DNA from: Frankia casuarinae
GTDB taxonomy: Bacteria > Actinomycetota > Actinomycetes > Frankiales > Frankiaceae
Direction of reading: 5' to 3'
Length of the DNA stretch: 64,000 nucleotides
Assembly: GCF_000013345.1 (NCBI RefSeq)
Contig: NC_007777.1
Coordinates: 4,960,001-5,024,000, forward strand
The notes below the pieces were generated by a model. That model had not been told where the DNA came from. It worked only from the letters and a program-made list of their open reading frames with translations, and did not search any database. A program made the translations under genes and the position numbers. Below, piece by piece: positions 44,858 to 64,000 of this stretch (position 1 is the first letter of the stretch; every line of letters begins with the position of its first letter).

Positions 44858-45493
44858 TCACAGCCTCGTCAAAGCCGCCAGCCATGCCTGGGCGGCCCCC
44901 GGATTGAATGTCACGGCGATGCGCGAAGGAGCGAGTAGGTCGATGCGCCAGCCACCGGCGAAGCTCTCCCGCAACTCCCGCTCCGAGACCCGGTGCGGAC
45001 CCCAGGTGCCTTGCTGCCGGTCGCTGAAGCACATCAGGAAGCAGCGTCCACCCGGACGCAGGGCCGCGCCGAGAGAGGCCACCAGCGCCACACGGTCCTG
45101 CGGTGCGAAGCAATGGAACAGCCCGCAGTCGAGCAGCGTGTCGAACTGCTCGCCGAGGCCTTCGAGCTCGAGGACGTCCTGGACCAGGAACCGAGCCTCC
45201 AAGCCGCGTTCTGCCGCCTTCTGCCGCGCCAGCGCGATACCGCTGGGAGCGGCGTCCACACCCGTGGTGTCCAGCCCGAGCTCGGCCGTCATGAGGGCGT
45301 TATCGCCACTGCCGCAGCCGACATCCAGCACCCGGCCCGTGAAGGCTCCTCGATGGGCGAGTTCCACGAACACGGGCTGAGGCCGCCCGATCTCCCAGCC
45401 GGCTCCCGGGGCTCCGGCATAGTGGGCCTCGAAGACATCGACACCGCTGTCCGGGCGTGTGCGCGCCGTGCCGGGCTCCTGTGTGGCTGACAT
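44858..45493 (-). CDS. Class I SAM-dependent methyltransferase
   Basis: 211 aa. Motif I GRVLDVGCGSGDNALMTAEL, the acidic loop in TTGVDAAPSGIALARQKA and post-I DVLEL are clear. LDCGLFHCFAPQDR and LRPGGRCFLMCFS complete the fold. Substrate unknown. It is divergent from the RiPP operon by 255 bp, so it may be a tailoring enzyme (N-, O- or ester methylation) or unrelated. It does not look like a SPOUT-type rRNA resistance methylase. Confidence 0.8.
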   Translation of the reverse strand: MSATQEPGTARTRPDSGVDVFEAHYAGAPGAGWEIGRPQPVFVELAHRGAFTGRVLDVGCGSGDNALMTAELGLDTTGVDAAPSGIALARQKAAERGLEARFLVQDVLELEGLGEQFDTLLDCGLFHCFAPQDRVALVASLGAALRPGGRCFLMCFSDRQQGTWGPHRVSERELRESFAGGWRIDLLAPSRIAVTFNPGAAQAWLAALTRL

Positions 45494-45571
45494 CTCGGCT
45501 CCTGTCCGCTGCTGTCTCGTCCGCTACTTCACTCGGTGCGCCGCGGGAGCAGCCAGAGCCTTCTGATCCAT

Positions 45572-45588
45572 GTCACGCACATCGTGAC
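45572..45588. promoter_or_regulatory. Short inverted repeat in the divergent promoter region
   Basis: GTCACG-cacat-CGTGAC is a perfect 6-bp inverted repeat in the 255-bp gap between the methyltransferase gene and the first gene of the RiPP operon. It could be an operator. No regulator gene lies in the visible cluster. Confidence 0.3.
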
Positions 45589-45748
45589 TCTTGTCAGGGC
45601 TGGGCGATGACGCGTTGTCGCAGGCCCTGGGGATCCGCAGGATCGTCGGTAGGTGGCTCGGAGGTCGGAGTTCCGGCTGGAGGCCGCAGCCGTTCGAGCC
45701 GGTCGGTGACGACCGCGCAGCCCTACAAGTCCGAACAGGTGTCGCAGC

Positions 45749-46873
45749 GTGACTGTCAAGACAGCAGAACCCAAGGTCCCGCCGTCGGACGACACGGTGA
45801 CCGGTCTACGCCTCTTCACCCGCGGAACGGTCAACCCGCGATGGCTGGTGCGGACGGTCGTGCCGGCTGCACGAGAGCTGCGGGAGACCCACGGTGCCTC
45901 AATGGTCTATCTCCGACGCGGCTGGCTACACGGCCCGCATGTCGACCTCGTGGCGCGCGTGGACCAGGGCGGCAGCCCCCCGCCGTGGGACGAAATGGCC
46001 CACCGTCTCGATGCCGGCCCGCTCGACCCGTCAAGCGCGATCAGCGAGGAAACCTACCTGGAAAAGGCACGTGAGTTCGGCCGCCTGGAGCGGGTCCCCC
46101 CTCCCTACCTGCCGATGCGAGCGCACGGCACGGTCGAACGGCTCGGCCCAAGCGACACCGCGCGCTGGCCCGTGGCCCTCAACGCGCTCCGCGAGGTCGC
46201 CCTCGGCCGCCTGGACCTCCCCCTGATCGACACACTGGAGGACGTCGCCGAGCATGGGGCGCAGGCCGAAACCCGCGTACTGGAAGCCTTCGTGGCCCTC
46301 GCCGATGCGCACCACGCCGGCGTCGCCTACGGTGTGTTCTCGCTGCGCTCGCACGTGGAGGCTTTCCTGAGCTGGGCATCGGCCCGCAAGGATCCGCGTC
46401 CCGCCTTCCGGGCCAGGCTGGCGTCGGACGCGCCGCGGCTGCGCTCGCTGGTCGAGTCCGCCCTCAAAGGCGACATGAATCGCCACTACACCGCCTGGCA
46501 GACGGCGTTCGCCTACACGATGGGCGTCTTCGATCACGCCGTGCTCACCGGAGCACTGACCCTGGACGGGCTTGACGAACTCGACGGCGGCTTCGACCCC
46601 GCCACCATGGGCCCACCGGGACGGCCGTCGATGGCTGATACCGGGCCCAGCGACTTCCACCGGGTCATGAACGACTCAGGTGTGATCGCCGAGCCGCCGC
46701 AGTGGTTCGCCTCGTACCGCCTGCTCGTGAATCTCTTCTACCAGCAGCTGCCCCTGCTGAGCGTCTCCCCGCTGCACCGCTACTACGTCTGCTACGCCGT
46801 CGCCGAGACGGTCGACGAGGTGCTGGGGGAGTCCTGGCAGGAGCGGTTGGAGCGGAGGGCCAGCCGGGCATGA
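45749..46873 (+). CDS. LanB C-domain / thiopeptide pyridine-synthase-like protein
   Basis: 374 aa, first gene of the RiPP operon. MVYLRRGWLHGPHVDLVARV has the shape of the fiRy..GpHlrlR signature of the thiopeptide-type bacteriocin family (SpaB C-terminal superfamily). The C-terminal segment LLVNLFYQQLPLLSVSPLHR, followed by YYVCYAVAETVDEVLG, resembles what I recall of TbtD/TclM/NosO-type proteins that form the central pyridine by formal [4+2] cycloaddition. Because a canonical elimination-domain protein is also present (54658-55668), this one is the best candidate for the macrocyclising enzyme. The assignment needs a profile search. The stop overlaps the next ATG. Confidence 0.55.
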   Translation: MTVKTAEPKVPPSDDTVTGLRLFTRGTVNPRWLVRTVVPAARELRETHGASMVYLRRGWLHGPHVDLVARVDQGGSPPPWDEMAHRLDAGPLDPSSAISEETYLEKAREFGRLERVPPPYLPMRAHGTVERLGPSDTARWPVALNALREVALGRLDLPLIDTLEDVAEHGAQAETRVLEAFVALADAHHAGVAYGVFSLRSHVEAFLSWASARKDPRPAFRARLASDAPRLRSLVESALKGDMNRHYTAWQTAFAYTMGVFDHAVLTGALTLDGLDELDGGFDPATMGPPGRPSMADTGPSDFHRVMNDSGVIAEPPQWFASYRLLVNLFYQQLPLLSVSPLHRYYVCYAVAETVDEVLGESWQERLERRASRA

Positions 46874-49431
46874 CCGTACAGCAGGCGGAGTCGACCGCCA
46901 CGTCCCCTGCCACACCCGCGGCAGGAGCCCTCGAGCCCCTGTGGGTGCTGCGCGTCAACCTGCTGCGCCGCACCCGGCTGAGCGACCCCGCGCTGGCCGC
47001 AGTGCTTGGTGACCTCCTTACCGCCGAAGCGACACTCGCGGCAGCGGCGCAGAAGTGCTCCGACGAGCTGCACGAGCTGATTGGCGCCACTACCGACCGC
47101 GAGGCACGCGGCCGGCTCATCGCATTGCGCCGAGACGTTCACAACGACCGCCGGCCGCGTAGCGGCACGGCCGTTACGCCAGCGGTGGACCAGTGGGCGG
47201 CGGCGCGGGACCGGCGCGACGCACTGCGGGCACGGATCGCGGACACCTATCCACAGGCCATCGCCCGGGAGCGGGAGGGGCTGGGTGCCCTGCTCGCCGA
47301 CGACGACCTGCGCCGCGCACTGGCCCTGGTGGCGCCCGAGGTGTCGGACGGCGCCGATCGGTATCGCGCCGCACTGGCGGATTCACGTCCGCTGCCCGCG
47401 CGACTGCGCAAGTCGGAGCGTGGTCTGGTGCAGTACGTCACCCGGGCCATGATTCGCACCAGCCCGCTCTCCCGCTTTACCGCCGTAGGCGTGGCGGTGC
47501 CCGATGACCGGGGTCGGGCCCCCGACGAGATCCGCTTCGCGAGCGCCGTCCCCTTCATGGGGCTGGACCGGGTGATGCTCGGGTATGTTGCTGCCGGGCT
47601 GACCGCCCCGAGGGACGGCGTCGGGCTGGACCACTGGGTCCAGCTCCCACCGACGGCCGAGGTCGACGAGTCCTCCGCCCGGCTGTACTTCATGCGCCCC
47701 ACGGCGAAGGGCATCCAGCGGCTGTCCACACCGGTGACAGGCCTTGTGCAGTCGGTCCTGGAAGCCACGGCCATGGGCCCCCGCCGTGTCGGCGCCATCG
47801 CCGGCCACATCGCAGAGCGGACGGAAGTCCACTACGACCAGGCGGTGCGAGCCATAGCACAGGCCGTGGGCGCGGGTATCCTGTGCACGTGCGACGGGCC
47901 GGAGGACGGGGACGCGCCCTACTCAGCGCTTCTCCACCGGCCCGACAGCCCGGTCGTCCGTCTTGACGATGTGGCCCGGCGGTTGAAAGTCATCGCCGAC
48001 GCCCCGCCGGAGGACCGCGTGGCCGAACTGAGCCGACTGAGGAGCGCGCTGGCGGACGTCAGCCGTCATGCGGGTCGACCCGCGCAGATCCTCGTCGAGG
48101 AGGACTACGTCCTGCCGCCCCGGACAGTGGCCACCGTTGCCTGGCGCGACCGGCTCAATGACCTTGCCGCCGGCGTCGAACTGCTGTCAGTCTTCGACCG
48201 GCTCCACGATGTCCGTGCCCTGTTGTCCGCCGTGTTCGTGGAACGGTTCGGCCGCGGAGCCGTCGTTCCTCTGGCGGAGCACGCGGCGTACCTGGTCGCC
48301 GAGGTCTACCGGCACAACGGAGCCGTCGACGGCAAGGTACCCCCTGGTATCGGCCCGGCCGACGGCTCGCTCGACGAACTCCAGGTTCTGCGTCGACACG
48401 TCCTGGACAAGCTCTACGCTGACATCTCCCGAAGCGATACCGAGGAGGTGGTCTGGAGCCCCGGGCACGTGCGTGCACTGGCCACCGGACTGCCCGCACG
48501 GTTCCGTGCCGCACCACTGGCGCACAGCGTGCTCGTGCAATCCTGGAACGGGCACTTGGTGTTCAACGACGCATACGCCGGGCACGGCATGCTCTATGGC
48601 CGGTTCCTCGGCCCGGACCGGGACCTGGGCGGTGCCGCACTGCCCCATCTTGCCGAGCGGCTGCGACGGCAGTACGGCACGGACGGCCACCGGCTCGTTG
48701 AGGACCTCGGTCTGCACCGTCTCAACGTCAACGCCCACGCACCCGTCCTGTCCGACGGCCTGGTCCCGGACGACTGGTTCACCTTCCGGCTCGCCCATGA
48801 CCCGGACACCGACGGTCTCACCGTGCTCGACGCGGAAGAACGGCCCACCCGTGTCCTCACCCTCGGCGCCGGGCACCCCGAACTGTTCCCGCCACCCGTA
48901 CGGGTGGCTACCTGGCTCGTCAGCGGTGGACGGCTGATGGAGGACCTAATCGGTGGCTGGCACTCGACGACCGGATGGGACGGCGACTCGAGCCGGCCCT
49001 GTCCCCGGCTGCGCGTCGGTTCCGCCGTACTCTCCCGGCGCCGGTGGTACGGCGGCCGGGAAATGGCTGATGCCGTCGCGGCCGGGCCCGCCGAACATGA
49101 CCGCCTGCTGGCCCTCACCAAGTGGCGTGCCCGCCACTGCATTCCGGCGGAGATCGTCCTGAAGACCCCCCTGGACGACGGCTACCGCCGCGAGGCCATC
49201 GCCTCGGGCGAGGACGCCCAGGCCCACCGGCAACGGCAGAAGCCGCAGTACGTGGACTTGCAGAGCGCCCTGAGCGTGCGGGTGCTGCCCAGGCTCATGG
49301 AACGGCGCAGCCCCGGATACCTGGAGGAGGCCCTGCCGGGCGTCGGGGACGGCCCGCACGCCGCCGAGTGGGTCATCGAGATCGGGCGCCCAGCGGGCGG
49401 AACGTTCCAGTACGGAGGAATGCCGGAATGA
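46870..49431 (+). CDS. Lantibiotic dehydratase N-terminal (tRNA-Glu-dependent glutamylation) protein
   Basis: 853 aa, ATG 46870 in ATGA overlap. The LanB N-domain features are present: LWVLRVNLLRRTRLSD near the start, SERGLVQYVTRAMIRTSPLS with FTAVGVAV, then HYDQAVRAIAQAVGAGIL and LGAGHPELFPPPVRVATWL toward the end. Split LanB proteins of this size (TbtB, NosE type) transfer glutamate from Glu-tRNA to Ser/Thr of the core peptide before elimination to dehydroamino acids. A separate elimination protein is encoded at 54658-55668. Many serines in the precursor core give it ample substrate. Confidence 0.85.
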   Translation: MTVQQAESTATSPATPAAGALEPLWVLRVNLLRRTRLSDPALAAVLGDLLTAEATLAAAAQKCSDELHELIGATTDREARGRLIALRRDVHNDRRPRSGTAVTPAVDQWAAARDRRDALRARIADTYPQAIAREREGLGALLADDDLRRALALVAPEVSDGADRYRAALADSRPLPARLRKSERGLVQYVTRAMIRTSPLSRFTAVGVAVPDDRGRAPDEIRFASAVPFMGLDRVMLGYVAAGLTAPRDGVGLDHWVQLPPTAEVDESSARLYFMRPTAKGIQRLSTPVTGLVQSVLEATAMGPRRVGAIAGHIAERTEVHYDQAVRAIAQAVGAGILCTCDGPEDGDAPYSALLHRPDSPVVRLDDVARRLKVIADAPPEDRVAELSRLRSALADVSRHAGRPAQILVEEDYVLPPRTVATVAWRDRLNDLAAGVELLSVFDRLHDVRALLSAVFVERFGRGAVVPLAEHAAYLVAEVYRHNGAVDGKVPPGIGPADGSLDELQVLRRHVLDKLYADISRSDTEEVVWSPGHVRALATGLPARFRAAPLAHSVLVQSWNGHLVFNDAYAGHGMLYGRFLGPDRDLGGAALPHLAERLRRQYGTDGHRLVEDLGLHRLNVNAHAPVLSDGLVPDDWFTFRLAHDPDTDGLTVLDAEERPTRVLTLGAGHPELFPPPVRVATWLVSGGRLMEDLIGGWHSTTGWDGDSSRPCPRLRVGSAVLSRRRWYGGREMADAVAAGPAEHDRLLALTKWRARHCIPAEIVLKTPLDDGYRREAIASGEDAQAHRQRQKPQYVDLQSALSVRVLPRLMERRSPGYLEEALPGVGDGPHAAEWVIEIGRPAGGTFQYGGMPE

Positions 49432-51167
49432 AGATAAAGTCGCGTACCTACCTGCATTACGCACCGGTCCCCGGCGGCGTGTACTTCAGTGGCCCGACAA
49501 GCCAGTTCGTCATGCGCGGGCCGGAGTTACTGTTCACCATCGCCGACCTCTGCGTTCCGCTGTTGGAGGAGGGCACAACCGAGGACGATCTCGTGCGTGC
49601 CCTGGGCACCGAGAAGGCCCGACCGGCGGTACGCAAGGTAGTCGACGGGTTGCTCAGCCACGACATGCTCCTGGACACCGCAGGGTTCACTGTGGCTGAA
49701 ACCGGTATCGCCGAACGGGATCGCTTCCCCGAGGCGCTCGCCCACCTGGAGGCGTTTACTGACGATCCCTACGCGGCCTTCGCCGCCCTGCGGACCGCAC
49801 ATGTGGTGCTCTATGGCCCGGCGGCCGTGGTGTCCCCAGCCGCCCGGGGACTGGCCCGGGCAGGCGCCGGGCACCTGGCTTTGGCTACTCCCGATGGGGA
49901 CCTCGACCCCGTGCGGGCGGTGGGGGAGCGCCTGGGAGCGCGGCTCCTCAGTGACCAGGAAGAACTCAAAGAAGCACTTGCCGAAGCCGACGCGGTGCTC
50001 TGGTGTCCCGGGGAAGACGGCGAGCCCGCCCCCCGGGTCTCCCTGCGGCCGGCCGGATGGCTGGTACCGGTGAGCCTGGGCGAGGCCACGGTCGTCGGAC
50101 CAGTTCTCGACGCGACGGCAGCATCCGGGCAGTGGCCCGCGTCGGCGGAAAGAGCGCTGTCGTGGGCCCACAGGCACTCCGGCGGACCAGTCGCCCGGCC
50201 GGGGGCGGACAGGCTCGCGGGAGCGCTCGCTGGTCAGCTGTTGTTTGATGCCCTCACTAATTGTGCCGCTTCCGCCGAAGCGCATGTCGTCCATGGCGAC
50301 GACCTAGCCGCCGACCGCGTCACCGTGCCCGGCGCCCAGTCCTCGGCTGGCCCAGCCACCTGGTGCTCTCTCGACTCTGTCGCGCAGCAGCCCGCCCCCG
50401 ACGAGGAGGAGGCCCTGGAGCGGATCTACCAGGTCACCGCCCCGTGGACCGGGCTGTTCCAGCTCGTCACGGACGACGCCCTGCCTCAGATGCCCTTGGC
50501 CCTGCGGCAGATCGAGTACCGGCTCGGGCGAACCGGCTCCGTCGTCGGGTGGGGGGCCGGACAGCGGGCGGCAACCGTCGCCGTCGTACTGGACGCACTG
50601 CGCGCTCTGCGCGCGGACGAGGGAGTGGGTGCCGCCGGATTCACGCCGCAGCAGTGGCTGCTGGACGGCGCACTGCGGCTGCTCGTGGAGCGGGCACGGA
50701 CTGGTGGTGCCGTCAACAGGGCAGAACTGCCCGCCGACGACCGCATGGTGCTCCGGCTGCTGACGGACGAATCGGCGCAGCTCGTCGTTCTGCTCGATCT
50801 GGAGGTGGCGGGCCTGGACTGGCGGTTGGCCCGCGTCGAGGGCGAGCACGGCAAGGTCCTCGGTGTTGGCTGGGGCCGCGACCAGGCCGAGGCCCGGCAC
50901 GCCGCGCTGGGCACCGCACTCGCCCACGAGCAGGCCCGGCGGCTCCTGCCGGACGTGGGGATCGCACATGTGAACACCGCTGCCCTCCTCGTCGCGTCCG
51001 CCGCCGAACTCGCCGCCCTGAGCGCCGACGTCGTCGGGCAGGGGACCGCCGAGGGGATCGGCTACCTCGGGCTGGCGCACCGCTCGGACCCGGTGCTCGG
51101 CGATCTTCCGTACTGGTCCGGGACGGTCGAAGCGCGGCGCAGGGACCCGGAGGACGGCAATGCCTGA
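49428..51167 (+). CDS. Ocin-ThiF-like cyclodehydratase partner (leader-binding F protein)
   Basis: 579 aa, coupled start at 49428. The N-terminal 85 residues look like a RiPP recognition element (TYLHYAPVPGGVYFSGPTSQ, then a winged-helix pattern LEEGTTEDDLVRAL). A degenerate ThiF/E1-like Rossmann part follows (ALRTAHVVLYGPAAVVSPAA), then a long C-terminal domain (VAVVLDALRALRADEG, VGWGRDQAEARHAALGTALA). In thiopeptide and TOMM clusters such proteins bind the leader and present the peptide to the YcaO enzyme encoded immediately downstream. Its end overlaps the YcaO gene by 8 bp. Confidence 0.75.
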   Translation: MKIKSRTYLHYAPVPGGVYFSGPTSQFVMRGPELLFTIADLCVPLLEEGTTEDDLVRALGTEKARPAVRKVVDGLLSHDMLLDTAGFTVAETGIAERDRFPEALAHLEAFTDDPYAAFAALRTAHVVLYGPAAVVSPAARGLARAGAGHLALATPDGDLDPVRAVGERLGARLLSDQEELKEALAEADAVLWCPGEDGEPAPRVSLRPAGWLVPVSLGEATVVGPVLDATAASGQWPASAERALSWAHRHSGGPVARPGADRLAGALAGQLLFDALTNCAASAEAHVVHGDDLAADRVTVPGAQSSAGPATWCSLDSVAQQPAPDEEEALERIYQVTAPWTGLFQLVTDDALPQMPLALRQIEYRLGRTGSVVGWGAGQRAATVAVVLDALRALRADEGVGAAGFTPQQWLLDGALRLLVERARTGGAVNRAELPADDRMVLRLLTDESAQLVVLLDLEVAGLDWRLARVEGEHGKVLGVGWGRDQAEARHAALGTALAHEQARRLLPDVGIAHVNTAALLVASAAELAALSADVVGQGTAEGIGYLGLAHRSDPVLGDLPYWSGTVEARRRDPEDGNA

Positions 51168-53094
51168 GCCCTCCAAGGTCGCCTTCGCCCTTCCCATACC
51201 GGCTCTTGTGCGGGTGCGCGGAGCGATCGACGAGGCCTGGCACGAGGCGCTCGCCGACCTTCCGGACGCTGTGGGCAGCACCGTGTCCCTGGGCATCGGG
51301 TGGGACCTCGCCTGGGAGCGCGAGCAGTGGCGATCGGCTGTCGAGGACAGGCGCAGCCACCTCTCCGTGCGCCTGTACGCGGACGAGACTCTGATCGGCC
51401 CCCTGTGGGCGCCCGCGACCGATGCCGGATGCAGCGGATGCGCCGAGGTCCGCTCCCGGGTGGTTCGCGCCCACCCGATGGTCGAGGCACTGCAAGTGCC
51501 CACCGAGGTCCCGCTTCCTCGGTCTCCCCTGCTGCCAGAGCTGCTGGCGGCCGCCGTACAACACCTCACCGCCCAGCCTCTCGGGCCCGGTGAGCTCTAC
51601 GCGGTCGGCACCGGGTCAACCCGCCGCCACCGGGTTCCACGCAGCTCCGGCTGCCCTCTGTGCGGCGCCCGCACCACTGGCACCGCAACCGCTCCCCCGC
51701 CCGGCAGGCTGGTGCTGCACGACCACCCGGCGGACCCTCACGACCCCACCCGGGGCCTCACGGGCCGCCGGTTGCTCGCCCCCGGCGCCCTGCGCCGTCG
51801 TACCGTCGACCCGCGGTTCGGCCCAGTACGGGAAGTCGTCCGCGAGTCGCGCGCCCCCTACGCGATGAGCATGGCGGCACTGCCCAACGCACCCGCCATG
51901 GGATACGCGCGGGCCGTCGACTTCGAAACGGCCGAACCGGTCGCGGTCCTGGAGGCTTACGAGCGGCTGGGAGGCTTTCCGTACGAGGCTTCGGTGATCG
52001 AGGACGTGGCCTACCAGGAGGTCGCAGAACACGCCGTGGATCCCGCCTCACTCGGCGGGTACACCGCGCAGCAACTGGCCCATCCGAGCACTCGCGTGAC
52101 CCCGAGCTTCCCGTCCACGCCCATGGACTGGGTCTGGGGCCACGACCTCGCCACCGGCAGACCCCTGCTTGTCCCCGCGGACATCGGCTTCTACCAGTAC
52201 GACCACCGCTTCAAACGCTCGCACCATGCCGCGCAGCGAGCCGCCCCGCACGACCGTCGCCGCTATTTCCACGACTCGTCGAGTGGCTGCGCGCTGGGCG
52301 GAAGCCTGGAAGAGGCGGCACTGCACTCACTGTTCGAACTGGCCGAACGCGATGCCTTCCTCATTGCCTGGCACTGTGCCGTCCCGCTGCCCGCCATCGA
52401 CCCGGCCTCCATCACCGACCCGGCCAGCCGTCGGTTGCTCGACCTGATCGACTCGCGGGGGTTCGACGCCCATCTGCTGGTCGCCACCCAGGACATCGAC
52501 CTACCCGTGGTGTGGGCGCTCGCCATGAACCGTGAGCGGCACTTCCCGGCCACCTTCTCGGCCGCCGGGTCTGGCTGCAATCCGGCGTCCGTGGTGCGCA
52601 GTGCCCTGTGGGAGCTCGGCCAGATCGTCACCGACCCGGTCACCTGGACCAGAGCCGACATCGAGCCCATGCTCGCAGACCCCTGGCTGGTCGAGGAACT
52701 CGACGACCACCTGCGGCTCTACACCCTTCCTCAGACGCTCGGACGGGTCACCCCGGTGCTTGGTGGTCTGCGGGTCCCTCTCGACGAAGCGTTTCCCGGA
52801 TGGCCCGACCGGCTGCGCGAGGAGGCGAAGGGCAGCGTGCTCAGGGCGCTGCGAGCCATGCAAGAACGTTTCGCCCGCGCCGGTCTGGACCGGATCGTGC
52901 TGGTCGACCAGTCCACCCGGGAACACCGGGACCTTCAGGTCGCCGTCGCCAAGGCGGTGGTGCCGGGAATCATCCCCATGTGCTTCGGCCACGCGCAGCA
53001 GCGGCTGCTGGGCCTGCCCCGGCTGACCGCAGCGCTCGCGGGCACGCCAACGGCCGACCGGCCCTGCCCTTATGACCCTCATCCGTTCCCGTGA
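51160..53094 (+). CDS. YcaO-domain azoline cyclodehydratase
   Basis: 644 aa. The N-terminal part has two CxxC pairs (Cys91/94 in GCSGCAEVR and Cys165/168 in GCPLCGAR), a likely zinc site as in TOMM leader-binding and YcaO fusions. The YcaO domain carries the ATP/Mg helix GGSLEEAALHSLFELAERDA and SAAGSGCNPASVVRSALWEL. The protein ends PCPYDPHPFP, the proline-rich C-terminus needed for cyclodehydratase activity. It converts Cys (and possibly Ser) of the core to thiazolines/oxazolines using ATP. Confidence 0.88.
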   Translation: MPEPSKVAFALPIPALVRVRGAIDEAWHEALADLPDAVGSTVSLGIGWDLAWEREQWRSAVEDRRSHLSVRLYADETLIGPLWAPATDAGCSGCAEVRSRVVRAHPMVEALQVPTEVPLPRSPLLPELLAAAVQHLTAQPLGPGELYAVGTGSTRRHRVPRSSGCPLCGARTTGTATAPPPGRLVLHDHPADPHDPTRGLTGRRLLAPGALRRRTVDPRFGPVREVVRESRAPYAMSMAALPNAPAMGYARAVDFETAEPVAVLEAYERLGGFPYEASVIEDVAYQEVAEHAVDPASLGGYTAQQLAHPSTRVTPSFPSTPMDWVWGHDLATGRPLLVPADIGFYQYDHRFKRSHHAAQRAAPHDRRRYFHDSSSGCALGGSLEEAALHSLFELAERDAFLIAWHCAVPLPAIDPASITDPASRRLLDLIDSRGFDAHLLVATQDIDLPVVWALAMNRERHFPATFSAAGSGCNPASVVRSALWELGQIVTDPVTWTRADIEPMLADPWLVEELDDHLRLYTLPQTLGRVTPVLGGLRVPLDEAFPGWPDRLREEAKGSVLRALRAMQERFARAGLDRIVLVDQSTREHRDLQVAVAKAVVPGIIPMCFGHAQQRLLGLPRLTAALAGTPTADRPCPYDPHPFP

Positions 53095-56638: not shown

Positions 56639-57376
56639 GTGTCCATGACCCTCCTGCATGCCCGTTACCAGATCCTTCAGACCATCCGCATCCCCATCGC
56701 GGTGATCGGCTCCGCGTTCTTCCCTGCGGCCTCGATGCTCTTCTTCGTGGTTCCGGCGACCGGCGACGACCCGGCAGGTGCGACCTACGCGACCGCTTCG
56801 ATGGTCGTCTTTGCCGTCATGATCAGCAATCTCTTCGGGCACGGCGTCGGCGTTGCCGAGGACCGCGCCCAGCCCTGGGACCCTTACACCCGGACTCTTC
56901 CCGTCGGCCCGTGGCCGAAGTTCGGGGGCAGACTGATCTCCGGCCTGGTGATGATGCTGGTCTCTCTTGCCCCGGTGGTCGTCATCGCTGCCGTGGCCAC
57001 GCCGGCCCGCATCTCGGCGGTCGGGTTCGCCGCGGCTGTGGGTGTCGTCGTCCTGGTCTCGCTGCCCTTCAGCCTGATGGGACTGGCCATCGGCTACCTG
57101 CTGCCTACCAAAGCGGCCCTCGCCGTAGTGCAGGTCGTCTTCTTCCCAATCGCCTTCGCCGGAGGCCTGCTCTCCGCCCCCGGCAAGGCTCCCGGCTTCA
57201 TCGAGACCATCGCTCCGTACGTGCCGAGCCGTGGCGCGGTCGAACTCATGTGGGCGGCCGTCGGCGACTTCAGGCCGAGTACCACATCCCTCATCGTGTT
57301 CGTCCTGTGGTCGGTGGTCCTCGCGGCCCTCGCGGTCTTCGCGTATCGCAGGGACGAGGGCAGGCGGTTCCGCTGA
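56639..57376 (+). CDS. ABC-2 type transporter permease
   Basis: 245 aa from GTG 56639, with GGAAGGAAAAG upstream. Six hydrophobic helices are visible (IAVIGSAFFPAASMLFFVV, YATASMVVFAVMISNLFGHG, LISGLVMMLVSLAPVVVIAA, FAAAVGVVVLVSLPFSLMGL, LAVVQVVFFPIAFAGGLL, LIVFVLWSVVLAALAVFAYR). It is the membrane partner of the preceding ATPase and the last gene of the plus-strand operon, followed by a hairpin terminator. Confidence 0.9.
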   Translation: MSMTLLHARYQILQTIRIPIAVIGSAFFPAASMLFFVVPATGDDPAGATYATASMVVFAVMISNLFGHGVGVAEDRAQPWDPYTRTLPVGPWPKFGGRLISGLVMMLVSLAPVVVIAAVATPARISAVGFAAAVGVVVLVSLPFSLMGLAIGYLLPTKAALAVVQVVFFPIAFAGGLLSAPGKAPGFIETIAPYVPSRGAVELMWAAVGDFRPSTTSLIVFVLWSVVLAALAVFAYRRDEGRRFR

Positions 57377-57388
57377 CCGGGCAGATCG

Positions 57389-57445: not shown

Positions 57446-59113
57446 TCAGAGGGCGCCGGCGTGCGGGACTCGGACACGCTCCAGCAGTTCACGGACGACC
57501 TCCGAGGTCTCCGCTCGGTCACTGCCGACGCCGAACACCTGGAAGTCGGGGCGGATCAGCGCGGCCCGCGCGCCCATGCCGTCCAGCCAGGCCCGCAGGA
57601 ATCCTCCGGCGTCGGCGACGGACTCCCACTCCTTGCTGACGGTTGGGGCCGCGCCCGCCGGCAGGACCTGTACCAGGCGGACACTCCGGTCCCGAAGTCG
57701 CTCGGCCAGCCCCGCCTCCAGCAGTGCCTCCGGCACGCCGAGGGCCAGCAGGACGAAGTCCTGGCCCAGGATTTCCATGCGCGGCTCCGGAGAGCCGACA
57801 GCGCCCAGCCGCACCTCGGGGACACGTCGTCCGGTGCCTCGCCCCGGAGCGCCGTCGGACAGGTGGTGCGCGAACCGTCCGTCCATAGCCTGGCCTGGCA
57901 CAGCGTCGGTGCCGTGTCCCGACGTCGACTTCCCGGATGTCGCCGGCGTCGCGCGGGCCAGCAGTGCGCGGTCCCGTTCGGCGGCCGCCGCCGGATCGGT
58001 CACGCAGATGATCCGGCCCAGCTGGGTGGACATCTCGACGGTCTGCCGGGCCTGCGGCGCGCGCTCCGCCTCGTAACTGTCCATCAGGTTCTCGTCCGCG
58101 CAGCCCGCCAGGATCAGGTCGAGTTTCCATGCGAGATTGGCCGCGTCACCGATGCCCGAGCACATGCCCTGCCCTGCGAACGGCGGCATCTGGTGGGCAG
58201 CGTCGCCGGCGAGCAGGACGCGCCCGCGACGCCAGCGGTTCGCGACACGCGCCGCAAACGTGTACACGGCATGCCGCACGAGCGTGGCGTTGGCAGGCGT
58301 GACACCGAAGAGGGACAGCAGGTCCCACGCCTTCGCCACCCCGGCGAACTCCTCGGCGGACTCGCCGGCCAGCCGCATGAACTCCCAGCGCCTGCGGCCA
58401 GGGCCCGCCGAGACGGCGACGCGCGGCCGGGCTGGATCGGCGTACTGGACGTTGCACGCGGGGAACTCCTCCGGATGGTGCGGTACGACGTCGCAGGCCA
58501 TCCAGTCGTGCGAGAAGCCGTAGTCGGTCAGCGACGCGCCCATGGCCGTACGGACGAAGCTGCCGGCACCGTCGCACCCCACGACCCAGCGCGCCCGAAC
58601 CGTACGGCCGGCACCGGACCCGGTGTCCCGCAGCCCTACTTCGACGTGGGACGCGCGCGCCACGAGCCGGAGGGCCTCCTGTCCCCGCAGCACTCGCAAG
58701 GAGGCACACCGCTCCCCGTGTTCGGTCAACGCCGCCTCCAGCCGCGGCTGGTACATCGATGTCGAGTCCGGCCAGCGATGCTCGTCTCCGGGGCTTAGGC
58801 CGATGCGCAGGAGTGTCCGACCGGTGCCGTTCACAACCATGTAGTCCGGTGACGGCTCTCCGATGGCACCGAGTTCCGCGCGCAGTCCGGCCGCTGCCAG
58901 AACGCGGGCCGCCTGTGCGTCGAAGGCCACGGCGCGTGGGAGGGGGTAGGGGTGCGGCTGCCTCTCGGTCACCGTGACCCGCCAGCCTCGCCGGGCCAGC
59001 AACAGGGACAGAAACTGGCCGACGGGCCCGTAGCCGACCACGAGCACGTGGCAGTCGTCGGCGGATCCGCCGGACTCCATACCTGTTCGGGTGGACGGCA
59101 GTGCGCCGTTCAT
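57446..59113 (-). CDS. FAD-dependent aromatic monooxygenase (MhpA-like)
   Basis: 555 aa from ATG 59113, preceded by GGAGG at 8 nt. FAD motifs are HVLVVGYGPVGQFLSLLLAR, WVVGCDGAGSFVRTAMG (DG motif) and RVLLAGDAAHQMPPFAGQGM. The C-terminal thioredoxin-like domain (RLVQVLPAG, ALIRPDFQVFGVG) is that of 3-(3-hydroxyphenyl)propionate-hydroxylase and polyketide hydroxylases. It probably hydroxylates an aromatic ring, perhaps the aminobenzoate unit or the peptide-bound product. It is divergent from the precursor gene and shares its promoter region. Confidence 0.85.
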   Translation of the reverse strand: MNGALPSTRTGMESGGSADDCHVLVVGYGPVGQFLSLLLARRGWRVTVTERQPHPYPLPRAVAFDAQAARVLAAAGLRAELGAIGEPSPDYMVVNGTGRTLLRIGLSPGDEHRWPDSTSMYQPRLEAALTEHGERCASLRVLRGQEALRLVARASHVEVGLRDTGSGAGRTVRARWVVGCDGAGSFVRTAMGASLTDYGFSHDWMACDVVPHHPEEFPACNVQYADPARPRVAVSAGPGRRRWEFMRLAGESAEEFAGVAKAWDLLSLFGVTPANATLVRHAVYTFAARVANRWRRGRVLLAGDAAHQMPPFAGQGMCSGIGDAANLAWKLDLILAGCADENLMDSYEAERAPQARQTVEMSTQLGRIICVTDPAAAAERDRALLARATPATSGKSTSGHGTDAVPGQAMDGRFAHHLSDGAPGRGTGRRVPEVRLGAVGSPEPRMEILGQDFVLLALGVPEALLEAGLAERLRDRSVRLVQVLPAGAAPTVSKEWESVADAGGFLRAWLDGMGARAALIRPDFQVFGVGSDRAETSEVVRELLERVRVPHAGAL

Positions 59114-59346: not shown

Positions 59347-59526
59347 ATGAGCGCTCTCGCCAGCGAGAAGCCCATGGACGACAAGCTGTTCGCCGGCTTC
59401 GACATCGAGGAGCTGGAGGTGCTGGAGGTCTCCGACAGCGTCGCGCTACCGGAGATGGGTGCGTCGTCTGGCTCAGGCATACTCTGCTGCTCCTCGTCGT
59501 CGTCGTCGTCATCCTCCTGCTGCTGA
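59347..59526 (+). CDS. Thiopeptide-type RiPP precursor peptide with poly-serine core
   Basis: 59 aa from ATG 59347, with AAGGAG 6 nt upstream. The acidic leader (MSALASEKPMDDKLFAGFDI, EELEVLEVSDSVALPEMGA) has the DLxVLEVSD...LPExGAS pattern of thiopeptide leaders, with the usual cleavage region after Gly-Ala. The core after Ser40 is SGSGILCCSSSSSSSSSCC: Cys47-48, nine serines (49-57) and Cys58-59 at the end. Four Cys and up to twelve Ser are modifiable by the YcaO, LanB and pyridine-synthase-like enzymes encoded nearby. Five consecutive TCG codons make the serine run prone to length change. The gene is followed by a strong hairpin. Confidence 0.9.
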   Translation: MSALASEKPMDDKLFAGFDIEELEVLEVSDSVALPEMGASSGSGILCCSSSSSSSSSCC

Positions 59527-59540
59527 CCTCAGTAGTGAGC

Positions 59541-59579: not shown

Positions 59580-59606
59580 GTCGTCAAGACCCGGACGGGT
59601 GGAACC

Positions 59607-61232
59607 ATGACCAGTTACACCGGCGCCTTCTCTTTGGAAATCCCGGATTTATGGAAAAACCATGAGAACTGCGCTTTCCGTATTCTTTACGGACTGGTCC
59701 AGAGGCCGAACTCGCTCGTGGTGCGCTGGCGTGACAGAGAAATCACGGCCGAGCTTCTCGCCGAGCTGATCCTGAATGCTGCAGAAACCTTCCTGCAATG
59801 CGGTGCCGGCCCACGCGAAGCCATTGCCGTCCTTGCATCGTCCAATCATCCGGCGATGCTCGTCTGCCGATATGCGGCACACCTCATCGGGGCATCCGTC
59901 GTCTACGTCCGGGCCGCCAACCCCCGCACCGACGCCGAAATGCTGTCGCGCCAGGTGCAGTCCCGGATCCTCGAGGAGGTCGGGGCCCGCGTCCTGGTCG
60001 TCGACGCATCACACATCGACCGGGGACGAGCTCTCGTGGCGTCCGCCACGACGCTGCTCACCCTCGTGACGGAAACGTACCCCGCGGTGCCGCTCGACAC
60101 AGGTCGTACGCCCCGGCTGCCTGATCTTCCCCCGTACGACGGCGACGCGCGTGCTCTGGTCACGTTCACCAGCGGAAGCACGGGACAACCCAAGAGCTTG
60201 TCTCAGTCGTACCGCACCTGGAACGCGACCGTCCGCGGGTTCTCCGGCCGGACCGATACCCACCTACCGTCGCGGATCCTGGCCGTGACGCCGGTCAGCC
60301 ACACTGTCGGCTTCATGGTCGACTCCGTCCTCGCCGCCGGTGGCAGCGCGGTCCTGCATGAAGGCTTTGACGCCGGCACCGTGCTCAGCGATGTCGCCAG
60401 GCACCGGATCACCGATACCTATCTGGCCGTTCCGCACCTGTACCGCCTGGTTGAGCATGAGGACCTTCCCCGCACCGATGTGTCGTCCCTGCGTCGGCTC
60501 ATCTACAGCGGCACCCCGGCCGCGCCACGTCGGATCGCGCAGGCGGTCCCCTGCTTCCGCGACGCCATCGTCCAGCTCTACGGCACGACGGAAGCGGGCG
60601 GCATCTCCAGCCTCACGCCGCTGGACCACCAGGAGCCCGAACTCCTGCCGACGGTCGGGCGGCCCTTCCCCTGGGTGCAGGTCCGCATGTGTGACCCGGA
60701 CACCGGCGCTGAGGTGGAGCGAGGCCACGTGGGGGAGGTGTGGACGTACTCGACAACAGTGATGGACGGCTACCTGGAGACCGGCGTCCCCACGCACAGC
60801 ACTCTGCGAGACGGCTGGCTGCGCACGGGTGACCTCGGCTACTGGGACCAGTACGGCTATCTGCGGCTGGTCGGCCGGGTCGGCCAGGTGATCAAGGCCG
60901 GCGGACAGAAGGTTTACCCGACGGCCGTCGAGTCGGCGCTCCAGGAGCATCCCGACGTGCGGCATGCCGTTGTCTTCGGCGTCCACGACCGGGACCGGAT
61001 CGAGCACGTGCACGCCGCAGTCGTCCTGGCACCCGGTTCCTCGGTCACAGACGAGGAGCTGAGTCGCCATGTGGCCGCCACGCTCGACTCGGCCCATGCA
61101 CCTGCGCACTTCAGCCGATGGGCCGAGATCCCGCTCACCGCGTACGGGAAACCGGACCGAGCGTCACTGCGTTCCCGAGCGGAGCGGGAAGCGCTGGGCG
61201 GCGGGACAGTGCAGAGAGGAAGGGCACTGTGA
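59607..61232 (+). CDS. Acyl-adenylating ligase (AMP-dependent synthetase), probable aminobenzoate ligase
   Basis: 541 aa from ATG 59607. ANL motifs: A3 LVTFTSGSTGQPKSLSQSYR, A5 IVQLYGTTEAGGISSLTPLD, A7 WLRTGDLGYWDQYGYL, A8 RVGQVIKAGGQKVYPTAVES, and the catalytic Lys in TAYGKPDRASL. The family activates carboxylic acids as adenylates for CoA, a carrier protein or an amine. Co-transcription with GriI/GriH-like genes suggests an aminohydroxybenzoate substrate, comparable in role to acid-activating enzymes in side-ring-bearing thiopeptide pathways. No carrier protein gene is seen before the window ends. The stop overlaps the next GTG. Confidence 0.82.
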   Translation: MTSYTGAFSLEIPDLWKNHENCAFRILYGLVQRPNSLVVRWRDREITAELLAELILNAAETFLQCGAGPREAIAVLASSNHPAMLVCRYAAHLIGASVVYVRAANPRTDAEMLSRQVQSRILEEVGARVLVVDASHIDRGRALVASATTLLTLVTETYPAVPLDTGRTPRLPDLPPYDGDARALVTFTSGSTGQPKSLSQSYRTWNATVRGFSGRTDTHLPSRILAVTPVSHTVGFMVDSVLAAGGSAVLHEGFDAGTVLSDVARHRITDTYLAVPHLYRLVEHEDLPRTDVSSLRRLIYSGTPAAPRRIAQAVPCFRDAIVQLYGTTEAGGISSLTPLDHQEPELLPTVGRPFPWVQVRMCDPDTGAEVERGHVGEVWTYSTTVMDGYLETGVPTHSTLRDGWLRTGDLGYWDQYGYLRLVGRVGQVIKAGGQKVYPTAVESALQEHPDVRHAVVFGVHDRDRIEHVHAAVVLAPGSSVTDEELSRHVAATLDSAHAPAHFSRWAEIPLTAYGKPDRASLRSRAEREALGGGTVQRGRAL

Positions 61233-62065
61233 CAGAACAGCACTTCGCCCGTGCGCTGAGGATGGCCCGGCTCCACCGCTGGCACCCCGCCAGGCTGGCG
61301 ATCACACCGCTCGACCACTCGATCAGCGACGGACCCGTGGTGCCGCGCGGCACCACCATCGACGGCCTCGCAGGTCAGCTGGTGGAGGCCGGCGTGGACG
61401 CCATCGTCGTCCACAAGGGCAGCCTCCGGCACCTTCGTCCCGCCCGTCTCACCGGCATGTCGGTGATCGTCCATCTCAACGCAAGCACCGCTCACGCACC
61501 CGATCCGGATGCCAAGTACCTGGTCACCGGAGTGGAGGAAGCGCTCAGGCTGGGTGCGGACGCAGTCAGTCTGCACGTCAACCTCGGCTCCCTCGACGAA
61601 CGCCAGCAGATCGGGGACCTCGGCCGGGTCGCGGAGCGCTGCGAGCAGTGGAACCTGCCGCTGCTCGCGATGATGTACCCGCGCGGGCCGCGGATCAGCG
61701 ACCCGCATGATCCGGAGCTGATCGCGCACGCGGTCACACTCGCCGTGGACCTGGGCGCGGACCTGGTCAAGGCCCCCTTCCCCGGGTCCGTCCCGGCCCT
61801 GCGCGACCTGACGGACGCCTGCCCCGTCCCCCTGCTGTGCGCCGGCGGACCCCGCCGCAGTGAGGACGACGTTCTGGCGTACGTACGCGACGTGCTGCAC
61901 GGCGGGGCCGCCGGCGTGGCCATGGGCCGCAGCATCTTCCAGGCCGACGACCCGCGGCGGATGGCTGCGGCGGTGGCCCAACTGGTCCATGCGGAATCCG
62001 AGCCTCGTCTCGAACCGACTGCAGAAGGGCAGCGAAGTGAACGCAAGGAAGCTGTGCTGGCTTGA
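61229..62065 (+). CDS. GriI-like aldolase (C7 aminobenzoate precursor synthase)
   Basis: 278 aa from GTG 61229 (GTGA overlap). It belongs to the DeoC/FbaB-type TIM barrels of the 2-amino-3,7-dideoxy-D-threo-hept-6-ulosonate synthase family: ITPLDHSISDGPVVPRG, VSLHVNLGS, MYPRGPRISDPHD, the Schiff-base Lys in DLGADLVKAPFPG, and LLCAGGPRRSEDD with GVAMGRSIFQ. GriI in grixazone biosynthesis condenses aspartate semialdehyde and dihydroxyacetone phosphate. Being paired with a GriH homologue makes 3-amino-4-hydroxybenzoate the expected product. The end overlaps the next gene by 29 bp. Confidence 0.85.
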   Translation: MTEQHFARALRMARLHRWHPARLAITPLDHSISDGPVVPRGTTIDGLAGQLVEAGVDAIVVHKGSLRHLRPARLTGMSVIVHLNASTAHAPDPDAKYLVTGVEEALRLGADAVSLHVNLGSLDERQQIGDLGRVAERCEQWNLPLLAMMYPRGPRISDPHDPELIAHAVTLAVDLGADLVKAPFPGSVPALRDLTDACPVPLLCAGGPRRSEDDVLAYVRDVLHGGAAGVAMGRSIFQADDPRRMAAAVAQLVHAESEPRLEPTAEGQRSERKEAVLA

Positions 62066-63158
62066 CATCCGCGAGGCCGGCGAAGCCCGGGCCGCAGTCC
62101 TCGATGAGGCTGTGCACCAGCGGATCGACGGCATCGTGAGCGACGATCCGGCGGACCTCGGCGGGCTGCCGCCCACGGTCCGCAAGATACTTCTCTATGA
62201 CGGCCCCACAGCCGAAGCACCAGAGACTCCTGACCTCTCGGCGGCGGACATCGTGATCCTGCCGTCCGGTCTCACGGGGCGCCGCGCACTGGAGGAGCGC
62301 CATCCCGCCGTCCAGTTCGGGCGCCGCGTCGAGATCGTTGACGCCCCGAGTCTGGAGGAGGCGTGCGACGCGGCCCATACCGAGCCGTGGAGCCTGCTCG
62401 ACTTCCGGGACCCGACCAAGATACCGCTGGAGATTGTGATCGCTGCAGCCGTGGGAGCCGAGGGTTCCATTGTCACTCGCGCCGACGACGCGGTGGAGGC
62501 GCAGATCGTCTTCGGGGTCCTGGAACTGGGATCCGACGGAGTCATGATGCCGGGACGGGCAGTGGGGGACGCGACTGCCCTGAAACGCGCCACGGAGGCC
62601 GCCACCGGCGAACTGGAGCTGGTCGAACTGGAGATCACGGCCACCACCCACATCGGCATCGGTGAACGGGCGTGTGTGGACACCTGCGCCTACCTGCGCG
62701 AGGACGAAGGAATCCTCGTCGGCTCGTACTCCAAGGGCATGATTCTCTGCGTCAGCGAAACCCATCCCCTGCCCTACATGCCGACCCGTCCGTTCCGCGT
62801 GAACGCCGGCGCGATCCACTCCTACACGGTTTCGGCCGGCGGCAGGACCCAGTACCTCAGCGAACTCCACTCGGGCAGCAAGGTCCTGGCCGTCGACGTG
62901 AAGGGCCGGACGCGGATCGTCCCGGTCGGCCGGGTCAAGATCGAGAAGCGCCCGCTCATCTCCGTGGACGCCGTGGCCGGAAACGGCCGAGAAGTCAATC
63001 TGATTCTTCAGGACGACTGGCATGTCCGTGTTCTCGGCCCCGGAGGCGCCGTGCTCAACAGCACCGAACTCAAGCCCGGCGACCGGGTGCTGGGGCATCT
63101 ACCGACGGCGGACCGGCACGTCGGCTACCCGATCGACGAGTTCTGCCGCGAGCAGTGA
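62037..63158 (+). CDS. GriH-like / dehydroquinate synthase II family enzyme
   Basis: 373 aa from GTG 62037. It matches the archaeal-type dehydroquinate synthase II fold: KLCWLDIREAGEARAAVLDE, VGAEGSIVTRADDAVEAQIV, FGVLELGSDGVMM, ATTHIGIGERACVDTCAYLR, EGILVGSYSKGMILCVSETH, NAGAIHSYTVSAGGRTQYLS. In actinomycetes this family (GriH) turns the C7 product of GriI into 3-amino-4-hydroxybenzoic acid. Gene order ligase-griI-griH with overlaps supports one pathway. A role in ordinary shikimate synthesis is unlikely given the neighbours. Confidence 0.85.
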   Translation: MNARKLCWLDIREAGEARAAVLDEAVHQRIDGIVSDDPADLGGLPPTVRKILLYDGPTAEAPETPDLSAADIVILPSGLTGRRALEERHPAVQFGRRVEIVDAPSLEEACDAAHTEPWSLLDFRDPTKIPLEIVIAAAVGAEGSIVTRADDAVEAQIVFGVLELGSDGVMMPGRAVGDATALKRATEAATGELELVELEITATTHIGIGERACVDTCAYLREDEGILVGSYSKGMILCVSETHPLPYMPTRPFRVNAGAIHSYTVSAGGRTQYLSELHSGSKVLAVDVKGRTRIVPVGRVKIEKRPLISVDAVAGNGREVNLILQDDWHVRVLGPGGAVLNSTELKPGDRVLGHLPTADRHVGYPIDEFCREQ

Positions 63159-63180
63159 CGGGCGGGTCTGGAGGCAGAAG

Positions 63181-64000
63181 ATGGTCCAGGGAAGAAACAC
63201 GCCCGCTGTCGCGGTGATCGGGGCCGGCATCGGCGGCCTGACCCTGGCGCTGGCCCTGGCGAGGGCCGGCGTTCCGTGCCGGGTGTACGAACAGGCGGAG
63301 AACCTCTCGGAGGTCGGGGCCGGGATCCAGCTCGCGCCGAACGCGGTGCGGCTGCTGAACCGGCTCGGCCTGACGGACAGCCTGCGCGTGATTGCGGTCG
63401 CGCCCCAGGCCATAGAAATCCGGCGCTGGCACGACGACCAGTTGCTGTCCCTGACCAGTCTGGGATCCCTGTGCCAGGAGTTGTACCGCGCGCCCTACTA
63501 CACGCTGCACCGCGCCCATCTGCACGATGTGCTGAAGCGGGCCGTCGGCATGGAAAGGGTGTCGCTGGGGAGTCGGCTTGTCCGCGTGGTTGAACAGGAG
63601 CACGGTGTCGAGCTTCACTTCGCGGACAGTACCGTCCGAACGGCCGACCTGGTGATCGGCGCGGACGGAATCCATTCGGCGGTACGAGACGCGTTGATCC
63701 GCGATGAGCAGGTGTACTCGGGTAACGTGGTCTACCGTGGCCTGATACCAGCGGAGCGGCTCTCCGGACTGGGCCGAATCCCCAAGGTGCGCATATGGAT
63801 CGGACCGGGCAAGCACTGCGTGTCCTACCCCGTGGCAGGCGGGCGACTGATCAGCTTCGCTGCGACCGCACCGCGTCCCCACGTGTCGGAATCATGGTCA
63901 GCCGACGGGGATCAAGAAGAACTGCTCGCTGAGTATGCGGGCTGGAACGGCACCACACGACGGATCCTGGAGGCTGGGGACAGCGTTCGGTGCTGGGCAC
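63181..64000 (+). CDS. FAD-dependent aromatic hydroxylase (salicylate-hydroxylase-like), 3' end outside window
   Basis: 273 codons seen from ATG 63181, with GGAGG 6 nt upstream. FAD motifs are AVAVIGAGIGGLTLALALAR, EVGAGIQLAPNAVRLLNRLG and DLVIGADGIHSAVRDALI, followed by VVYRGLIPAERL. It is of the salicylate 1-monooxygenase / 3-hydroxybenzoate 6-hydroxylase group. It lies 22 bp after the GriH-like gene, so it probably hydroxylates the aminohydroxybenzoate. Platensimycin-type pathways use a comparable flavin enzyme on 3-amino-4-hydroxybenzoate. The C-terminal third is missing. Confidence 0.82.
   Translation, partial: MVQGRNTPAVAVIGAGIGGLTLALALARAGVPCRVYEQAENLSEVGAGIQLAPNAVRLLNRLGLTDSLRVIAVAPQAIEIRRWHDDQLLSLTSLGSLCQELYRAPYYTLHRAHLHDVLKRAVGMERVSLGSRLVRVVEQEHGVELHFADSTVRTADLVIGADGIHSAVRDALIRDEQVYSGNVVYRGLIPAERLSGLGRIPKVRIWIGPGKHCVSYPVAGGRLISFAATAPRPHVSESWSADGDQEELLAEYAGWNGTTRRILEAGDSVRCWA

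Follow-up and report, generated by a model that had tools for sequence, protein, structure and literature searches.

A 64,000-base stretch of the Frankia casuarinae genome (hereafter the window; bases 4,960,001-5,024,000 of the single-contig, 5,433,628-base genome) carries at its right end a gene cluster in which the machinery for a thiopeptide, a ribosomally synthesized and post-translationally modified peptide (RiPP), lies together with genes for the synthesis of 3-amino-4-hydroxybenzoic acid (3,4-AHBA, or AHBA). The cluster is predicted to make a pyridine-type thiopeptide, likely capped with 3,4-AHBA supplied by its own GriI- and GriH-like enzymes, a reading to which we give a probability of about two in three. 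That the thiopeptide machinery and the GriI/GriH route form one cluster had been proposed from the window alone (the original prediction), and this is borne out by the physical linkage of the two gene sets in 30 of the 37 loci related to it, by a single clade of the linked GriH proteins and by the co-occurrence of a flavin monooxygenase (FMO), FMO2. Its status as a new structural subclass would hang on the attachment of AHBA to the peptide.

Layout and gene content of the cluster

Genes were called on the window and its right flank, and the encoded proteins were scanned against Pfam and NCBIfam. The cluster is a single compact block of fifteen genes at window positions 44858-64401, the last of which ends 401 bases beyond the window. 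In order, with their assigned or putative functions and the E-values or scores of the matches, these are:

44858..45493, reverse strand: MT, S-adenosylmethionine (SAM)-dependent class I methyltransferase (Methyltransf_25, 2.2e-19)
45797..46873, forward strand: PyrD, TbtD/PbtD-type [4+2] cyclase or pyridine synthase (NF045556, TbtD_PbtD_pyrid, 1.4e-34; PDB 5w98, PbtD, 4e-13)
46870..49431, forward strand: LanB-N, TbtB-like N-terminal (glutamylation) half of LanB (PF04738, Lant_dehydr_N, 3.2e-17; PDB 6ec7, presumably TbtB, 4e-12)
49428..51167, forward strand: F protein, with an N-terminal RiPP recognition element (RRE) and an E1/ThiF-like domain (family profile and AlphaFold2 (AF2) model)
51160..53094, forward strand: YcaO cyclodehydratase of the SagD type (PF02624, 4.6e-67; TIGR03604, 7.4e-66, and TIGR03882, 6.7e-27, both over cut-off)
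53111..54646, forward strand: candidate azoline dehydrogenase, nitroreductase-like (PF00881, 1.3e-4, just under cut-off; syntenic relatives)
54658..55668, forward strand: LanB-C, TbtC-like C-terminal (elimination) half of LanB (PF14028, 2.9e-33; TIGR03891, 3.5e-24)
55671..56588, forward strand: DrrA-like ATPase of an ABC exporter (PF00005, 7e-30; TIGR01188, 7.7e-63, under cut-off)
56639..57376, forward strand: ABC-2 type permease (PF01061, 1.6e-8)
57446..59113, reverse strand: FMO1, MhpA-type hydroxylase dependent on flavin adenine dinucleotide (FAD) (PF01494, 6.6e-64; NF004829, 1.8e-184, over cut-off)
59347..59526, forward strand: thiopeptide precursor of 59 residues (PF19409, Thiopep_pre, 3.4e-11, and TIGR03892, 3.2e-9, both over cut-off; NF033400 just under)
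59718..61232, forward strand: acyl-adenylating (ANL) ligase (PF00501, 1.6e-50; nearest PDB entries 6sq8, 1.5e-69, and 6h1b, 1.3e-68)
61229..62065, forward strand: GriI-like DhnA-type aldolase (NF041223, BagB/FevI, 3.6e-107, under cut-off; NF005556 over cut-off)
62037..63158, forward strand: GriH-like 3,4-AHBA synthase, similar to type II dehydroquinate synthase (DHQS-II-like; NF002625, 613 bits, over cut-off; NF041224, BagC/FevH, 582 bits with a cut-off of 750)
63181..64401 (the window ends at 64000), forward strand: FMO2, salicylate-hydroxylase-type FAD monooxygenase (PF01494, 1.7e-26)

The genes from PyrD to LanB-C and those from the ligase to GriH overlap or almost touch. All fifteen are open, and the F protein, the ligase and PyrD, the three checked at the residue level, align with their relatives over their full length. 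Gene calling, the Pfam and NCBIfam scans and, for the F protein, structure matches thus recovered every component that had been listed in the original prediction. The possibility that griI and griH belong to a separate cluster at the right was dropped: past FMO2 the flank holds about 2.3 kb with one unscanned open reading frame of 74 residues and then transposases of the IS30, ISAs1, ISL3 and IS5 families, and the acid genes are linked to thiopeptide genes elsewhere, as described below.

Thiopeptide machinery and precursors

The peptide-modifying enzymes share with the thiomuracin and GE2270 systems (tbt and pbt) a TbtB/TbtC-like split LanB, a TbtD/PbtD cyclase with its Tyr, a PbtF-type RRE and a YcaO protein. 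The split LanB dehydratase is recognised by PF04738 and PF14028/TIGR03891 matches that fall on two genes. PyrD is, by its sequence, apparently a divergent branch of the TbtD/PbtD cyclases; its Tyr315 corresponds in the alignment to a Tyr of PbtD for which PDB 8ejz has Phe, and it is invariant across a 22-row alignment (A3), the window included. The F protein (579 residues) gave by itself no Pfam or NCBIfam family match. When a 25-row family profile was used, its N-terminus matched the PbtF RRE (8t19, 3.9e-6) and its middle matched ThiF (0.005), and its AF2 model (mean pLDDT, the model's own confidence score, 81.6) matched MccB (1.6e-11), PaaA (7e-8) and ThiF (2e-6) in Foldseek, so that profile and model identify it as the putative F protein of the cluster. 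The YcaO protein has an N-terminal leader-binding-type domain and ends in PHPFP, a Pro-rich C-terminus being typical of azoline-forming YcaO proteins.

The original prediction mentioned both thiopeptides and linear azole peptides. The TbtD-type cyclase and the precursor models PF19409 and TIGR03892 assign the cluster to the thiopeptides, and a linear azole peptide was dropped, as was a lanthipeptide. The dehydrazole class (excerpt of PMC10676384) was also dropped, since dehydrazoles use a different dehydratase.

The window precursor, MSALASEKPMDDKLFAGFDIEELEVLEVSDSVALPEMGASSGSGILCCSSSSSSSSSCC, consists of a leader ending in DSVALPEMGA and the core SSGSGILCCSSSSSSSSSCC, with core position 1 set at the Ser after PEMGA by analogy with the leaders of TbtA and PbtA. 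The cores were surveyed in 48 precursors (20 distinct cores) from 31 of the related loci, numbered with the prefix L, plus the window; one precursor for the L032 genome, present in stretch L082, stands outside the 48. Within their own loci the script found no precursor for L008, L009, L014, L016, L032 and L042, and tblastn gave a 30-residue precursor match in L008. The distance between Ser1 and the Ser that follows a CC (or TS) pair was 8 residues in 43 of the 48 precursors (16 of the 20 distinct cores) and 9 in three, that of the window among them. A CC-S motif before the second cyclising Ser is also found in the GE2270 core. By the thiopeptide ring rule, under which a distance of 9 corresponds to 26 atoms, most members are predicted to have a 23-membered macrocycle and the window product a 26-membered one; the smallest known thiopeptide macrocycle has 26 atoms. 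The cores are rich in Ser and Thr and carry a poly-Ser tail, and every precursor ends in Cys (48/48; 20/20 distinct cores). The precursors at L007:18358-18552 and L041:18393-18587 carry a ten-residue insert, which would give a 53-atom ring if the same two Ser were used.

Linkage of the acid genes to thiopeptide genes

A YcaO scan of GTDB genomes retrieved 37 related loci in 37 genomes, from Streptomyces and, as single loci, from Actinacidiphila, Micromonospora and Longimycelium. The acid genes were physically linked to the thiopeptide genes in 30 of them, either inside the locus (10 loci, L020 being completed by overlap) or via an exactly overlapping flanking stretch (20 more), and ligase, GriI and GriH were adjacent in 29 of the 30. 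For L014, L016 and L031, GriI and GriH lay on another contig, overlap not being demonstrated, with the ligase beside them in two of the three stretches. No acid genes lay by the cluster in L023, L032, L037 and L039; GriH was absent from three of these four genomes, and that of L032 has one elsewhere (L069), where GriI is only 45% identical. Among 396 Actinomycetota genomes drawn across the phylum, only four gave GriH matches, one being the window's own and one marginal (E 7e-4). Linkage in 30 of 37 loci against this background argues that the arrangement is not due to chance; the co-occurrence of ligase, griI and griH with thiopeptide genes in other genomes, put forward with the original prediction as something to look for, is thus found as physical linkage.

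Three architectures were distinguished. Type A, the arrangement of the window, was found in nine other loci, all of them with the identical order ligase-GriI-GriH-FMO2 and with the precursor gene immediately before ligase-GriI-GriH on the same strand. A relative of FMO1 (50-62%) occupies the same position in 9/9 of these loci and a relative of MT (66-68%) does so in 7/9, the other two, L024 and L033, beginning downstream of MT. Type B comprises eight loci, with precursors that end in ...TSSSSSTCSSSTC (found in seven; that of L009 was not found), and type C sixteen, with precursors that end in ...TSSSSSSTCSAC and are often present as two near-identical copies.

The GriH tree separated 35 rows linked to thiopeptide genes (one of the genes fetched twice) from five unlinked GriH proteins at 100/99, two of the latter being on long branches. 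In the YcaO tree, 34 AHBA-bearing rows fell on one side of a branch (93/96) and the four AHBA-less rows on the other; type C was recovered at 100/100 and type B only at 66/66, and the window row was long-branched and of unsure placement. As the simplest reading, the acid genes probably entered this thiopeptide lineage once and stayed, and the cluster probably represents a thiopeptide subfamily with an AHBA module.

Concerning the acid enzymes themselves, an adjacent DhnA-type aldolase and AHBA synthase were found, the pair by which a 3,4-AHBA pathway is recognised and which points to such a pathway here, with the cut-offs of the exception models missed. Lys181 of GriI, which we take to be the Schiff-base Lys, was invariant in 41/41 rows (some genes fetched twice). 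A PDB search with GriH gave no match.

FMO2 accompanies the acid genes

FMO2 was present in 30 of the 37 loci: directly after GriH in 9/9 type A loci, and in 21 of the 24 loci of types B and C, the three without it (L014, L016 and L029) all being cut by contig ends. The four AHBA-less loci gave no FMO2, two of them, L023 and L032, being truncated at contig ends. The window's genome has another AHBA locus (L070; genome C1:2424000-2443500), where GriI (10950-11684), GriH (9798-10898) and an FMO2-like gene (8615-9739) stand in a row, the last directly after GriH and 48% identical to the FMO2 of the cluster. Its co-occurrence across loci and its presence in this second locus show that FMO2 belongs with the acid genes. 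None of the peptide genes of the cluster was found in L070, whose further genes include one of the amino-acid kinase family, to which aspartokinase belongs, along with two class III aminotransferases, a protein of the halogenase family, an ATP-grasp protein and IS66.

The solved enzyme nearest to FMO2 is tropone 2-monooxygenase, followed by vanillate 1-hydroxylase, 4-hydroxybenzoate decarboxylase, 6-hydroxynicotinate 3-monooxygenase and salicylate hydroxylase. Most of these relatives hydroxylate the carboxylate-bearing carbon, although the nearest does not. As, in addition, the best NCBIfam model was that of 3-hydroxybenzoate 6-monooxygenase (under cut-off), decarboxylation by FMO2 is kept only as a possibility.

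In 19 of the 37 loci (three of type A, 14 of type C, L009 and L040; for example L007:1796-3313, L044:3835-5139, L055 and L058), a CueO-like multicopper oxidase gene adjoins either the AHBA operon or the cluster. Such an enzyme could oxidise an aminophenol or a hydroquinone; its identification as a phenoxazinone synthase was not adopted, as its best NCBIfam model was CueO, with PhsA lower and both far below cut-off.

Proposed pathway and alternatives

From the families of the enzymes, the F protein and YcaO would turn the core Cys and some Ser/Thr into azolines, which the dehydrogenase would oxidise, and the split LanB would dehydrate Ser. PyrD would then form a pyridine from the dehydroalanines of Ser1 and of the Ser after the CC/TS pair, and the leader would be lost in this step. 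In parallel, aspartate semialdehyde and dihydroxyacetone phosphate would serve GriI and GriH as the starting materials for 3,4-AHBA. The ligase would form the link between peptide and AHBA by activating the C-terminal thiazole carboxylate and coupling it to the AHBA amine. FMO2 would next add a hydroxyl group to the AHBA ring, and export would fall to the ABC pair. Coupling at the C-terminus is the simplest arrangement because a pyridine-type product keeps no free N-terminus, and the C-terminus would be a thiazole carboxylate because all the surveyed precursors end in Cys. The main variant of this step would have the AHBA adenylate acylate a peptide hydroxyl. AHBA attachment, its site and the action of FMO2 on AHBA are in this scheme proposals drawn from gene content.

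The nearest solved relatives of the ligase, 6sq8 and 6h1b, are presumably structures of McbA, an amide-bond synthetase, and McbA and ClxA are carrier-free ligases that share ANL adenylation with the enzyme of the cluster. A precedent for the use of the 3,4-AHBA amine by an adenylating ligase is ClxA, which according to the excerpted text of PMC12519233 joins 3,4-AHBA, by way of its adenylate, to the amine of another 3,4-AHBA molecule in an in vitro reaction with no cofactor but ATP. Asp201 of McbA is reported to be important for amidation in the excerpts of PMC6282839 and PMC10804368. In our ligase, His195 aligns with the Asp of 6sq8/6h1b taken as McbA D201, and this His is invariant in a 19-row alignment (A2), so that its identification as an McbA-type amide-bond synthetase was rejected.

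Taken to its full detail, the preferred scheme would place the C-terminal thiazole acid on the AHBA amine and have FMO2 hydroxylate the carboxylate-bearing carbon, with an aminohydroquinone (a quinone where the multicopper oxidase adjoins) or a dearomatised quinol as the outcome, and thus a redox-active RiPP class with a mostly 23-atom macrocycle; this full combination is tentative and rather unlikely.

Several observations weigh against an AHBA-capped thiopeptide. No product is known. Without the catalytic Asp of McbA, the ligase may form a coenzyme A ester instead, and it does not seem to depend on AHBA, because L023 and the L032 genome retain a ligase relative although they have no linked GriI/GriH; an amine partner of other origin would, speculatively, fit these AHBA-less ligases. 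PyrD, GriI and GriH miss the curated cut-offs of the equivalog or exception models nearest to them, PyrD reaching 119.9 bits against a cut-off of 325 for NF045556, and the candidate dehydrogenase is assigned from a marginal nitroreductase match and its gene position. Thiopeptide cores usually, though not universally, begin with Ser-Cys, and core position 2 is here unlike that of most known thiopeptides, the residue after Ser1 being S, G, T, K, N, H or A in the 20 distinct cores and never Cys. In addition, the distance between the two Ser is 18 in two identical precursors (L007 and L041), the ligase lies more than 11 kb from GriI/GriH in L040, the AHBA branch of the YcaO tree falls slightly short of the tool's star, and type A plus the window do not form one side of a branch.

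The alternative that survives best, although we consider it unlikely, is a side-ring product, in which the ligase would activate the carboxylate of AHBA and load it as an ester or thioester on a core Ser, Thr or Cys, as with the indolic acid of nosiheptide. In its favour, small acids are the usual substrates of ANL aryl-acid ligases, several of which are among the solved relatives of our ligase in the PDB search, and the cores are rich in Ser and Thr. Against this, no carrier protein, radical SAM or acyltransferase family (a NosK-like one included) appeared among the Pfam matches of the fifteen cluster proteins, short uncalled open reading frames being unscanned, and a ligase relative persists in two relatives that lack linked GriI/GriH.

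A second alternative, that the product of the AHBA genes is a small molecule in its own right, like grixazone, bagremycin or ahbamycin (a pigment or chelator), and is only co-regulated or co-selected with the thiopeptide, is improbable. Free-standing AHBA products of other streptomycetes (excerpts of PMC6692506 and PMC10179220) and the frequent multicopper oxidase beside the acid genes or the cluster would be in keeping with it. Yet the type A precursor gene stands directly before ligase-GriI-GriH on the same strand, at 191 bases in the window, and both the linkage across loci and the single GriH clade count against it.

Comparison with known systems

With respect to thiomuracin and GE2270, the cluster differs by its divergent cyclase, the non-Cys residue at position 2, the predicted 23- or 26-membered ring, the poly-Ser tail ending in Cys and the AHBA module. 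With nosiheptide and thiostrepton it shares extra aromatic acid genes and an acyl-adenylating enzyme within a thiopeptide cluster. The side-ring acid of these compounds is derived from tryptophan, with radical SAM chemistry and carrier protein loading, whereas GriI and GriH are present here and neither a radical SAM nor a carrier family was among the Pfam matches, so that a nosiheptide-like acid was dropped. The grixazone, bagremycin and ferroverdin pathways have the same two adjacent acid enzymes, GriI/GriH (BagB/BagC); those pathways have no thiopeptide, the linked GriH proteins form their own clade apart from the five unlinked ones, and no tyrosinase-type GriF was among the Pfam matches of the cluster proteins. 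Pyritides also have a pyridine macrocycle and need no azole next to core Ser1. Compared to this class (PMC9247985), the present cluster has full azole machinery.

No AHBA-bearing thiopeptide was described among the matches listed from open-licence PubMed Central papers, MIBiG and subscription journals being outside this scope, in agreement with the original prediction, for which none was known; a product described in the latter sources may exist. The products covered in the excerpt of PMC11213898 are other ones. Thiopeptides are potent ribosome-targeting antibiotics, and their known added acids are derived from tryptophan. A subfamily that builds an aromatic acid of its own by a different route would reveal another way in which RiPPs are decorated and would offer a ligase and a hydroxylase that act on a ribosomal peptide. 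A griH gene next to PyrD provides a handle for finding further members, and the presence of the cluster in culture-collection strains (S. sulphureus DSM 40104, S. tanashiensis JCM 4086, S. olivaceus NRRL B-3009 and S. massasporeus JCM 4139) makes a search for the compound feasible.

Genomic context in Frankia

Among 35 genomes of the host's family, of which 27 are at least 90% complete and at most 5% contaminated, GriH was found in that of the window only and in none of the 34 relatives. The PyrD type of the window (E 1e-20 or better) was found in one of the 396 Actinomycetota genomes, its own, with few first-look candidates scored per genome. In the excerpt of PMC9760358, a table gives one thiopeptide cluster for F. 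casuarinae CcI3 and none for the 10 other strains listed, and CcI3 is described in that of PMC3188489 as having more than 200 transposase genes or remnants. Insertion sequences lie on both sides of the cluster. Two 100% identical IS4/5-type copies of 1,093 bases in the same orientation, at window coordinates 40988-42080 and 80626-81718 (the latter beyond the window end), bracket 38.5 kb that hold the cluster. No further full and identical copy was found in the genome, where a third one is 92% identical and a fourth is partial; visual inspection showed no target-site repeat at the pair. Acquisition of the cluster by transfer is likely. As the host is a nitrogen-fixing nodule symbiont, a plant-soil role of an apparently acquired thiopeptide cluster becomes testable.

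There is a low probability that the window carries an imported copy in decay, without a product, while the family is active elsewhere: the flanking insertion sequences and the identical pair would fit this, as would the fact that the multicopper oxidase and small membrane protein genes that flank some of the relatives were not found in the 110 kb searched, but the fifteen open genes and the full-length alignments of F protein, ligase and PyrD speak against it.

Additional features of the related loci

Genes of sugar aminotransferase (four loci) and glycosyltransferase (three loci) families adjoin type A clusters (L020:1-2487, L022:38-2586, L025:185-2686 and L027:3-968), which suggests that some type A products could be glycosylated; only the L020 pair was scanned, and the others group with it. 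In L032, L037 and L039 a JmjC/cupin oxygenase gene follows LanB-C, a place taken in AHBA-bearing loci by the flavin hydroxylase, the exporter or other genes, and in L023 the ligase relative adjoins an aminotransferase-family gene. In Micromonospora musae, GriI/GriH and the ligase are separated by another PyrD-like gene (49%; L047:7521-8546), accompanied by ABC and distant YcaO matches, possibly as a result of two thiopeptide clusters side by side.

Finally, at window coordinates 89782-94922 (L005:11782-16922), a different YcaO pair and genes of the nitroreductase and S15 peptidase families lie beside a terpene synthase gene; these genes probably constitute a second azole-type RiPP locus, about 26 kb to the right of the window end.

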